A stretch of DNA of 31,266 nucleotides, from IMG/VR virus record IMGVR_UViG_3300028287_000017, positions 1 through 31,266 of that record. The stretch is one strand, 5' to 3'. Below, piece after piece: positions 1,788-28,587 of the stretch. The position numbers and the translations under genes are program-made. Under the pieces are notes generated by a model. That model had not been told where the DNA came from. It made no database searches and saw nothing but the letters and a program-made list of their open reading frames with translations. Positions within the stretch are counted from its first letter, which is position 1. Every line of letters starts with the position of its first letter. Source of the DNA: a virus.

Positions 1788-1919
1788 TTATGCGTCGACC
1801 CCCAAAAGGAGCGACAACAATTTGTACACGGATAGGATTGCGAATGAACCGATGAAGAACATCGCCAGTAGAACAACCGAATATCCTATGTTTTCAAATG
1901 TGTTGTATTGCTTTTTCAT
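1788..1919 (-). CDS. Short single-pass membrane protein
   Basis: A 43-residue protein, MKKQYNTFENIGYSVVLLAM..., with one transmembrane helix at about residues 13-37 and a short cytosolic N-terminus. The frame stays open upstream to 2150, but I chose ATG 1919 because the promoter, its TSS and a 5' stem-loop lie at 1941-1990 inside that extension. The leader just before this ATG (ACCAAAC...CACCACGATT) also matches that of the gene at 2298-2516. It is first in the operon before SSB, a typical position for small early phage proteins acting on the host envelope. Function unknown. Confidence 0.6.
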   Translation of the reverse strand: MKKQYNTFENIGYSVVLLAMFFIGSFAILSVYKLLSLLLGVDA

Positions 1920-1960: not shown

Positions 1961-1990
1961 TAAACATACAACAAAAAACCGAATCCACAA
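1961..1990 (-). promoter_or_regulatory. Bacteroidota-type promoter of the SSB/DnaA-like operon
   Basis: Minus strand: TTG (1990-1988), 19-nt spacer, TATGTTTA (1968-1961), fitting TTG-N19-TAnnTTTR. The flanking element ACGTATTGTGNATTC around the TTG is shared with the promoter at 2554-2583. It would drive 1919 down to about 276. Confidence 0.7.
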
Positions 1991-2055: not shown

Positions 2056-2086
2056 TTGACTTTATCATTTGCGGTCGTTAACTTTG
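2056..2086 (+). promoter_or_regulatory. Plus-strand Bacteroidota-type promoter
   Basis: TTG at 2056-2058, a 20-nt spacer, and the consensus TAACTTTG at 2079-2086. It is the only full match I found on the plus strand and it points into a gene-free stretch that ends in a strong terminator, so it may express a noncoding RNA. A 9-bp inverted repeat (TTAACTTTG at 2078-2086, CAAAGTTAA at 2148-2156) includes the -7 box. Confidence 0.5.
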
Positions 2087-2092
2087 GCCATG

Positions 2093-2268
2093 TGAATGAA
2101 TTCACGCCCCCGGGAGGGGAGCGGCAAATCTCATTCTCATTTTTGGACAAAGTTAAAATTTAACAATAAGCCAAAAAAACAAAAGAACAACACGATTTCT
2201 TGCTCTCTCTATCTCAATTTGTTAAGTAGAAACCCCGACGAAACGAATGCGTACGTCGGGGTTTTCTC
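2093..2268 (+). ncRNA. Candidate ~175-nt plus-strand small RNA
   Basis: Bounded by the promoter at 2056-2086 and the hairpin terminator at 2229-2266, with no convincing protein on either strand. The start region has a GTGAATGAATTCAC palindrome (2092-2105) and a GC-rich CCCC-CGGGA-GGGG hairpin just after it. An A-rich middle is followed by TTTCTTGCTCTCTCT at 2196-2210. These 15 bases are perfectly complementary to the leader of the primase-helicase mRNA (28587-28573), directly over its ribosome binding site. This suggests a trans-acting antisense regulator. Both the RNA's existence and its role are inferred; the pyrimidine tract alternatively marks an old minus-strand ribosome binding site. 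Confidence 0.4.
2229..2266. terminator. Bidirectional intrinsic terminator
   Basis: AACCCCGACG (2231-2240) pairs with CGTCGGGGTT (2254-2263), a perfect 10-bp stem around a 13-nt loop that itself contains ACG/CGT. On the plus strand it is followed by TTTTCTCATTT, and on the minus strand by TTTCTAC. It can end the gene at 2298-2516 from one side and the candidate plus-strand RNA from the other. Confidence 0.8.
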
Positions 2269-2297: not shown

Positions 2298-2516
2298 TTA
2301 AAAATTTAATGCAACTTGTTTGACCATTTCCTTTGCTTGGCTTAATGTGCGAACATTTGATGTGATGTTGTTCAACTCTTGGATTGCTCTTTTGCCTTCA
2401 TCATTGTTTGGAAACATGAATGACCATGAGTCTAAATATTTTGTTACACTTAAACTCGCTTCGCCTATTTCTACTCTATAAACGCCCGCGATTGATTTTG
2501 TTATTTTGTAATCCAT
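2298..2516 (-). CDS. Small hypothetical protein in its own promoter-terminator unit
   Basis: A 72-residue soluble protein beginning MDYKITKSIAGVYRVEIGEA. The N-terminal half looks like a small beta sheet ending SWSFMFPNNDEG, the C-terminal half like two helices. The frame is open further upstream, but ATG 2516 lies just after the promoter leader and has the same ACCAAACACCAC leader as the gene at 1788-1919. It lies between its own promoter (2554-2583) and a terminator (2229-2266), so it is monocistronic, like a moron. No family recognised. Confidence 0.7.
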   Translation of the reverse strand: MDYKITKSIAGVYRVEIGEASLSVTKYLDSWSFMFPNNDEGKRAIQELNNITSNVRTLSQAKEMVKQVALNF

Positions 2517-26185: not shown

Positions 26186-26619
26186 AAGATATGAAATTTT
26201 TCAATATCAATGTAGGCGTTGCGGCGTATCGCTTCACCACCATCAATTGATTTTTGTGTTCTCGTTTCTTTTATCTCCATTGGTACGGCTACACCATACT
26301 CATCACCTAATTCAAGGCCGATGACAACGCCGTCTTTGATTAGGTACACAATCAAAATGAACGGCACGCACATCATTCTTGACATCTCAATGCCGTTCAA
26401 TATCTTATCGTAGGATATCAAATAAGTGCCGAACCGCTCCATTGATTCCAATGATTCGTTGCGTGATTTGAATTCAACGATGTGCGTCACCTCGTTGTTC
26501 TTTGTTGCAACGCCATCAATCAATGCGTATTTGGGCGTTGTGTGGACCTTCCATCCGTACCGCTTCAACAAGTGGTCGAATGCTAATTCTTCGAAACGTT
26601 GATAATCTTCGTACTTCAT
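26182..26619 (-). CDS. Probable PD-(D/E)XK nuclease-like protein
   Basis: A 145-residue protein with the minimal restriction-like nuclease pattern: an N-terminal helix (EELAFDHLLKRYGWKVHTTP), Asp35 in ALIDGVA, then the strand THIVEFKSRN with Glu49 and Lys51 (E-x-K). The rest is a mixed sheet ending AYIDIEKFHIL. It starts at ATG 26619, overlapping the primase-helicase stop by 4 nt. Candidate roles are resolution of replication intermediates or host DNA breakdown. The fold call rests on a short motif. Confidence 0.6.
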   Translation of the reverse strand: MKYEDYQRFEELAFDHLLKRYGWKVHTTPKYALIDGVATKNNEVTHIVEFKSRNESLESMERFGTYLISYDKILNGIEMSRMMCVPFILIVYLIKDGVVIGLELGDEYGVAVPMEIKETRTQKSIDGGEAIRRNAYIDIEKFHIL

Positions 26620-28571
26620 ATTAGATTTGTTAGTTCTACAACTCGCGAACGTGCTACTTTTTTATATTGAATAATGTTTGTCGCCTCCATTTCATTCAAT
26701 GCCTTTTCCGCGATGCGCCTCAACACGCCTTCGGTATCTGCAATGAATTTGACGGCATCCGTTGTGGTCTTGCCTTCAATCATTGGTGCCAATCGTTTGT
26801 GGTCCTCAATGGTCCACACTCGTTCGGGTGCTGATTCGAAATCCTCTTTTTGAACCAGTTGAATCGTATCATATCCCGTGATGGTCATTTCCATCGATGG
26901 GAATTCTTTGTTTCTTGTGTATTCGGGAACGATATCAGATGCGCCCGGTGTTGTTTCTGATTTGGCCAATGATATGGTTGTTTCCGCCTTTTGGACAAGA
27001 TAGGAACCCAAATGTCCTTTGGCATTGCGGTCGTTCTTGTTTTCGTGCAATACACACGAAATGTGGCAATTGTTGTTTGATGTCCATTGCAACAACATTG
27101 ACGCCAATGCGGTCGCTTCTTCTTCATCGTTTACGCCCTTGGACGCTAAGTCAACCACACCATCAATGACCACATACCCGATATTGTCAAACGACTTCAT
27201 GATGTAGTCGGTCAACTTCAATCGTTCCTTATTTGTAAGCAATCCACGGAATCGGTAATGTTTGAAATTAGGTAAGTTGACACGTGGGTCTAATCCGCCC
27301 ATCGTTTGGATTCTATTCTTTGCCTTTGATGCGTGCCAATCACCTTGTTCCGTATCAATGTAAATATTCACTTTGTTTGAAACGTGTCCACGGATATGAC
27401 CACAAACATTGTGTTCCGATATTGCCGCGGCCATCAATGAGCTTAGGAAATACGATTTCCGTGATTTGGCTTTCCCTTGAATCAATGAAAAGTTGCCCAT
27501 CGTTCCAAAGATGTATTCATCCGTTCCAAAGTGTAACGTGATGGCTTTTTCCGGTTCTTCAATTTCCTTGGTTGAATCCACTTCCAATGATTCCAACAAC
27601 GCCTTCATTTCATCGATGTCGTCATCCGTCGCGGTTTCATAATCAAACAATGCGTCGTCGGGAATCGCTGGGGCTTGTTGCTCACCAAACCCATCGTTTC
27701 GCAATTCTCGAATCGCGGATTGGAAATCACCGCCGTGGACCAATACAACGAACGCTTGGAATGCGTCAAATGTTTGTTCCGCTTCGAATTGTGTTGAGGT
27801 CGTGAACGGCATAAACAATCCCGAATCTTTGAACACAACACCGGACGTGTCTGCATCCGTGTTGCCGGGACGTTTGACATACGTCATTCGTTCGTTCTCA
27901 TCCACTATCGTCCACCCCGCGGACGTCAGCACATCCAACACGTGATATTTGGCCCTAAACTCACCCCACGGCGTTGTTTCGTCAACATCCCCCGACCAAA
28001 CCGAATCCGTGGGCTGATTCTTCATCGGTTCGGACGTGGGGACGTCTGCCGTCATCATGCGAGCGCATGACCAAATGATGTTGCGTTCATCGGGCGTGAT
28101 GGTTTGCACGTCCGTGATTTTTCCAATTATCTTGTAACCCGCCGACGGCCAAACAACGATTTGACCACCACGGCCACGCGTTTCAAAAGTGACTTCGCCA
28201 TCTTTGTTTTTAGCTAATTTTTCATTTCCAGCGATTTCCGAACATTTAAAAATCCAATGATAACCACCCGAACGCGTTTGTTGAATGACCATTCTTTGCA
28301 TCAACGTCGGGTCGTTTTGTTCTATTAATGAAACGAAATCATTGTATTCGTCACCCTCGAAATGCTTGGCATCAATATCAAGGCACTGAATGCCGTCGTA
28401 CCCCATGACCAATCCAATGGAATTGGTGTTCGCGAATGGTGTGAAATCGGTGACGGGTTCGTCAATGTGTTTTTGCCAACCTTTGATGGCTGGAATCTTT
28501 GAATCGGGACGCAACGGAATCGGCTTGAATCCGTGGTCGACGTATTTTTTGGCAATCTTTGTGATGTCCAT
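26616..28571 (-). CDS. Primase-polymerase/RecA-like helicase
   Basis: A 651-residue replication protein. The N-terminal Prim-Pol domain (about 1-165) has Asp65 and Asp67 in LDIDAKH, the SGGYHWIF motif (101-108) and GRGGQIVVWPS (133-143). A central FKDSGLFMPFTTSTQFEAEQ section is followed by a DnaB/RepA-like RecA fold: an atypical Walker A, GKAKSRKS (366-373), Walker B YVVIDG (466-471), and CVLHENK (506-512). It would prime and unwind DNA at the fork. No DNA polymerase gene is seen, so the host replisome is likely used. The leader AGAGAGAGCAAGAAA is complementary to the candidate small RNA at 2093-2268. Confidence 0.85.
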   Translation of the reverse strand: MDITKIAKKYVDHGFKPIPLRPDSKIPAIKGWQKHIDEPVTDFTPFANTNSIGLVMGYDGIQCLDIDAKHFEGDEYNDFVSLIEQNDPTLMQRMVIQQTRSGGYHWIFKCSEIAGNEKLAKNKDGEVTFETRGRGGQIVVWPSAGYKIIGKITDVQTITPDERNIIWSCARMMTADVPTSEPMKNQPTDSVWSGDVDETTPWGEFRAKYHVLDVLTSAGWTIVDENERMTYVKRPGNTDADTSGVVFKDSGLFMPFTTSTQFEAEQTFDAFQAFVVLVHGGDFQSAIRELRNDGFGEQQAPAIPDDALFDYETATDDDIDEMKALLESLEVDSTKEIEEPEKAITLHFGTDEYIFGTMGNFSLIQGKAKSRKSYFLSSLMAAAISEHNVCGHIRGHVSNKVNIYIDTEQGDWHASKAKNRIQTMGGLDPRVNLPNFKHYRFRGLLTNKERLKLTDYIMKSFDNIGYVVIDGVVDLASKGVNDEEEATALASMLLQWTSNNNCHISCVLHENKNDRNAKGHLGSYLVQKAETTISLAKSETTPGASDIVPEYTRNKEFPSMEMTITGYDTIQLVQKEDFESAPERVWTIEDHKRLAPMIEGKTTTDAVKFIADTEGVLRRIAEKALNEMEATNIIQYKKVARSRVVELTNLI

Positions 28572-28572
28572 T

Positions 28573-28587
28573 TTTCTTGCTCTCTCT
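28573..28587 (-). promoter_or_regulatory. Primase-helicase ribosome binding leader, target of candidate antisense
   Basis: Minus-strand AGAGAGAGCAAGAAA then A-ATG. It is an unusually purine-rich, SD-like leader for this genome. All 15 bases occur in reverse complement inside the candidate plus-strand RNA (2196-2210), so pairing would cover the binding site. Confidence 0.5.

Follow-up and report, generated by a model that had tools for sequence, protein, structure and literature searches.

Judging from its sequence and its recurrence in relatives, the gene-free gap between the late and early genes of the phage analysed here most likely gives rise to a small RNA some 175 bases long, which is probably a stand-alone, trans-acting repressor of primase translation and, in this way, a brake on phage DNA replication. 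The architecture of the element, its conservation, its complementarity to the primase leader and the way in which loop and leader change together among lineages can be read directly from the genomes; transcription and its start, pairing, repression and a role in dosage sensing are the predicted parts of the model. The features involved are collected in Table 1.

Table 1. Predicted features of the small-RNA element, its surroundings and its putative target in the window.
Feature	Position	Strand	Basis or remark
ORF left of the gap	1788-1919	-	Borders the gap
Divergent early promoter, TTG-N19-TATGTTTA	1961-1990	-	Kept in relatives
Small-RNA promoter: TTGAC (-33), 18 bases, TAACTTTG (-7)	2056-2086	+	Sequence; conserved in relatives; agrees with the Bacteroidota -33/-7 consensus (PMC6847099)
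P1a/b, left arm, overlapping the -7 box	2078-2090	+	Inverted repeat; compensatory changes
Predicted small RNA, about 175 nt	2090-2265	+	Putative start at 2090-2092 from the G at -5 of the -7 box (PMC6847099); expression predicted
5' hairpin, inner part of P1	2090-2140	+	Folds in every relative despite differing sequence
P1a/b, right arm	2144-2156	+	Inverted repeat; compensatory changes
P2 hairpin, pyrimidine-rich loop	2189-2223	+	Weakened stem in the window; L002 and L003 keep an intact one
Antisense segment TTTCTTGCTCTCTCT	2196-2210	+	15 nt complementary to the primase leader
P3 hairpin and T-run, putative intrinsic terminator	2230-2265	+	Plus-strand tail with 5-7 T in 8, 19/19 copies
ORF right of the gap, accessory	2298-2516	-	Borders the gap
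Primase-polymerase with AAA domain, predicted target gene	26616-28571	-	PF09250 1e-12; PF13481 2.6e-7; phrog_19930 4e-50
Predicted target AGAGAGAGCAAGAAA, directly before the primase-polymerase start codon (ATG, 28571)	28573-28587	-	Best P2 match in the window

Genomic setting and host

The window, that is, the whole stretch of DNA that was analysed, is an IMG/VR record of 31,266 bases in which almost every credible gene is encoded on the minus strand, among them those of an amidase, a tape measure, a head protease, a large terminase, the primase-polymerase, a YqaJ-type nuclease and a DnaA-domain-IV-like protein. The phage is marine, and its host probably belongs to the Bacteroidota, since its promoters are of the TAnnTTTG type and its leaders are A-rich. 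The promoter consensus of this phylum consists of TTTG at -33 and TAnnTTTG at -7, with a G at -5, and its messages are devoid of Shine-Dalgarno sequences (PMC6847099). A DNA search for a cultured relative returned no match, searches with the SSB-position protein and the DnaA-like protein found no cultured relative for either, and with the primase only distant counterparts turned up, in Cellulophaga phages and others. No tRNA or tmRNA was found.

An earlier note, made from the sequence of the window alone, had placed in this region a plus-strand promoter directed against the genes, and both ORFs bordering the gap are indeed encoded on the minus strand. The gene-free stretch that it described also exists, but at 378 nt (1920-2297) it is larger than the note had it. 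The left-hand ORF encodes a putative membrane protein, 43-47 aa long in many relatives, and precedes the gene in the SSB position; in the L010-L018 group, the leader of the membrane-protein gene also carries AAAGAGCAAATG, which makes it a possible second target. Several other traits of the surroundings are worth recording. The early promoter cassette (1962-2002) is duplicated at 2555-2595, ahead of the right-hand ORF (78% over 41 nt), the sequence of the late-gene terminator (GGGGCGTCC..GGGCGTCCC, 2596-2656) is strongly conserved between otherwise diverged relatives, and the small ORFs located between the element and the early genes differ among relatives.

Promoter, hairpins and terminator

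The promoter pattern proposed in the earlier note is present, with TTG at 2056-2058 followed after 20 bases by TAACTTTG at 2079-2086. By chance alone the pattern is not significant and proves little, since TTG-N20-TANNTTTG occurs twice in the window against 0.66 occurrences expected from shuffling, and 15 of 100 shuffles reach two; its significance derives from its conservation in relatives. Across 19 records, the first box reads TTGAC, except for TTGCC in L010, and the -7 octamer stands at a fixed spacing and is of the TAnnTT type (TAACTTTG, TAATTTGG, TATCTTCG or TAACTTGA, with GACCTTGC in L019). The 18-base spacer between the boxes is unrelated in sequence among copies and constant in length, and such a fixed spacing around varying sequence is as expected of a promoter. 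The -7 boxes of L010, L019 and L020 are close to TAnnTTGY, a known variant of this motif in Flavobacterium (PMC9723704). Moreover, inspection of the aligned copies revealed a second motif, approximately GTGAATAA, 16 bases upstream of TTGAC. The element thereby appears to possess the promoter of its own that is expected of a trans-encoded antisense small RNA, L019 being the weakest case.

The predicted RNA, 143-202 nt long across the group, would consist of the 5' hairpin, which varies in both sequence and length, an A-rich linker, P2 with its UUGCUCUCU-type loop and the terminator, in this order. The strong terminator noticed earlier is real: an 11-bp stem (AAACCCCGACG, 2230-2240, with CGTCGGGGTTT, 2254-2264) is followed by TTTTCTC, and the P3 hairpin and T-run of a putative intrinsic terminator are found in all copies. 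A consensus terminator scan missed P3 only because its loop exceeds 8 nt. On the minus side the tail is poorer than on the plus side, with at most about 5 T of 8 as counted by eye, the scripted counts for that side being too low where A-T pairs extend the stem.

Conservation in related phages

Conservation in relatives, which the earlier note had put forward as a check, was examined by searching IMG/VR with the neighbouring 185-aa protein, which yielded 19 loci, and with the amidase, a 149-aa protein and the primase, which yielded more. At least 19 related phage records share the element (the window, L002-L005, L007 and L009-L021), and the same layout recurs in all of them: a TTGAC-like box, at a fixed distance from it a TAnnTT-type box, then the 5' hairpin, P2 and a terminator with the stronger T-run on its plus side. 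The element sits where the late genes end and the early genes have yet to begin, sometimes shifted relative to small accessory genes. When IMG/VR was searched with the pattern TTGAC-N17-19-TAAYTTKG...CAAAKTWAA, the matches listed comprised the phages already known and matches devoid of the rest of the layout, and among the matches listed for the same DNA pattern in bacterial genomes none displayed the rest of the layout. The most deviant copy is that of L019, in which both the loop (AGAGAGACTAAAG) and the -7 box are changed and whose contig contains no primase gene; the AGAGAGAGAG leaders of L292, L293 and L302 were considered as candidate counterparts.

A peptide encoded by a 75-aa plus-strand frame (2096-2323) was considered and rejected, as the frame contains a stop in L002, is diverged in L003 and is not kept; no open frame within the element is conserved among the relatives. 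Likewise, no covariance model of Rfam 15 scored above its gathering threshold in the window, and only weak chance hits were obtained, in six relatives.

Complementarity of the P2 loop to the primase leader

Read on the minus strand, the P2 loop consists of AGAGAGCAA with lineage-specific flanks, and the corresponding words stand directly before the primase ATG: AGAGAGAGCAAGAAA in the window, AAGAGAGCAAGAAGA in L007, AGAGCAAAAAGA in L004, CAAAGAGCAAAAA in L010 and AAAGAGAGCAAAAA in L020, where the leader reads AAAAGAGAGCAAAAACC. Since the minus-strand words of P2 are those of the primase leader, a plus-strand RNA would be antisense to the primase start region. The gene whose translation start region matches the loop is thus located elsewhere, at a distance of 26 kb in the window. 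Within the 31 kb of the window, both strands included, the primase leader is the top match of P2, with a score of 15 (15 identical nt) against 11 for the next.

Duplex energies point in the same direction. The primase leader ranks first among the 14-46 ORF leaders of each contig in 15 of the 16 records holding both partners. It is first of 46 in the window, at -25.0 against -13.1 kcal/mol for the runner-up, and the values for the primase leader and its comparison are -26.5 and -14.6 in L007, -26.4 and -18.2 in L004, -23.6 and -14.0 in L018, and -22.5 and -20.6 in L020. In L005 the primase leader is third, first place being taken by an ORF inside the element itself, and in L011-L017 the perfect match spans only about 8 nt with a gapped extension, the primase still being first by energy. 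Loop and leader appear to change together between lineages: when they were permuted over seven lineages, treated as independent though they share ancestry, 28 of 5040 arrangements reached the true pairing.

AG-rich leaders are common, a fact that counts against the model. The RNA could instead act mainly on a host mRNA or on a number of phage leaders, that of the primase being one of many A/G-rich leaders that the loop would fit. In the L010-L018 group, AAAGAGCAAATG also precedes other early genes, both small accessory and membrane-protein genes, so that the RNA may have several targets, and AAAGAGCAAA occurs in three early leaders of L012. However, AGAGCAA near a plausible gene start is found in the window mainly in the primase leader, and this, together with the energy ranking, makes a main target other than the primase unlikely.

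The inverted repeat at the -7 box

The earlier note missed that the window contains just two copies of TAACTTTG, both in this element and on opposite strands (the second copy at 2148-2155, minus strand), as the arms of one inverted repeat. The -7 box and the downstream stretch form a 9-bp stem, and in almost every copy one mismatched position comes next after the ninth pair. In this basal stem of P1, both sides are changed in 8 of 12 pairs, and 96.9% of the cells are paired. Covariation amounts to 0.607, compared with 0.174 for shuffled partners and at most 0.107 when the arms are shifted against each other by one, two or three columns; complementarity was the criterion by which the arms were picked, and this is a bias towards structure, but the two-sided changes are nonetheless real sequence differences.

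The left arm covers the -7 box, so that with a start five bases further on, as expected, the RNA would be unable to form the basal stem of P1, and the location of the covarying P1a partly upstream of the putative start counts against the small-RNA model. The stem might reflect a cruciform or a DNA hairpin formed at the promoter, or else a start further upstream that has gone unrecognised. A start upstream of TTGAC, by which all of P1 would be transcribed, was rejected on inspection, there being no conserved -33 box at the right distance. A more far-reaching proposal is a new phage RNA family in which a copy-number-dependent antisense loop sets the primase level and, in addition, a hairpin or cruciform between the -7 box and the downstream segment controls the promoter, coupling the state of replication to RNA synthesis; in this combined form we regard it as tentative and rather doubtful.

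The conserved pairing of P1a, whose left arm would be outside the RNA, also fits a DNA element, namely a phage replication origin composed of DnaA-like boxes, of AT-rich tracts and of P1 as hairpin or cruciform, in which the apparent promoter would be part of the origin and the RNA secondary. DnaA-box-like sequences adjoin the element (1993-2001 and 2031-2039 in the window, neither of them exact; L007 and the L010 group have the exact TTATTCACA), box matches overall being not above chance, and the DnaA-domain-IV-like protein is a product of the downstream operon (751-1146; PF08299 4.3e-7, just under the curated cut-off). However, GC skew shows no switch, and an origin predicts neither a polar T-run terminator nor the complementarity of a second loop to the primase leader. 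Moreover, the boxes overlap the early promoter, whose copy at 2555-2595 is boxed as well, which suggests operators. An origin in place of a functional RNA is, on balance, a poor prospect; an origin nearby is plausible because of the DnaA-box-like repeats and the DnaA-like protein, and may coexist with the RNA. As an observation in its own right, the DnaA-box-like cluster by AT-rich tracts (1981-2039 in the window, overlapping the early promoter) also occurs in L007 and the L010 group, as a possible origin or operator.

Finally, a minus-strand RNA, made by read-through or from a convergent promoter at the second TAACTTTG copy, in which P2 would mimic the primase leader as a decoy for a leader-binding protein, agrees with the T-tract upstream of that box in the right arm and with the identity of minus-strand P2 to the leader, but it is less likely than the plus-strand RNA, and very improbable in itself, given the polarity of the terminator, the lack of a good -33 box on that strand and G-U pairs that are possible in the plus sense only (one in P2 of L002; P1b of L004 and L005).

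Proposed mechanism

A stand-alone plus-strand small RNA, the reading advanced in the earlier note, is the one best supported by comparison, namely by the architecture shared by 19 records, the fixed -33/-7 spacing, the polarity of the terminator, the compensatory changes, the lack of a conserved ORF and the complementarity between P2 and the primase leader; target and function, which that note did not name, are proposed here. The main RNA polymerase of the host would start at TTGAC-N18-TAACTTTG, divergently from the early-gene promoter, and transcription would end at the P3 terminator. The P2 loop would pair in trans with the start region of the primase-polymerase mRNA and block initiation, the small RNA exerting negative control on phage DNA replication. 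As the RNA would be made from each genome copy and rise with copy number, it would act as a dosage-sensing brake; alternatively, it may have a role in timing, delaying primase synthesis early. We infer both the timing and the direction of the effect, repression rather than activation. Since loop and target have changed together in lineages, the pairing is testable by mutation.

Comparison with known systems

Classic plasmid copy-control antisense RNAs are encoded opposite their target. In pMV158, the small RNA RNAII acts against repB, and plasmids limit replication proteins by antisense RNA (PMC4485353); the phage element would resemble these systems in that a small RNA blocks translation of a replication protein. 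Unlike in plasmids, the phage target lies far from the element and would be reached in trans by a short loop match. The c4 RNA of P1/P7 is a phage antisense RNA that blocks translation initiation of a phage gene. The same applies to P22 sar (PMC12197685). Both differ from the present element in that their target is an antirepressor gene and not replication, and sar is, in addition, cis-encoded.

In lambda, pO activity affects replication (PMC3985674; PMC12197685), and OOP is similar to the element as a short phage RNA against neighbouring genes near replication functions. However, OOP acts in cis by pairing with cII, no relation to the element emerged in sequence or structure, and the phage element has no Rfam match. 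The cis-encoded type in general (OOP, sar, CopA) differs in kind, because 26 kb of the window separate the element (2056-2265) from the target leader (28573-28587). Lambda PreS is a trans-acting phage small RNA for DNA replication, which acts on host dnaN with Hfq (PMC12197685), whereas the predicted target here is the phage's own primase.

As far as tested, none of these named systems is homologous to the element, which is ordinary as a pattern and, as a conserved element, probably represents a new family of phage small RNAs acting on the phage's own replication. The match between loop and primase leader provides a computable signature by which RNAs of this kind could be found in further uncultured phages. 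Plasmids are the classic setting of antisense brakes on replication, and the evidence gathered here points to a group of dsDNA phages in which a trans-encoded RNA is directed against their own primase.
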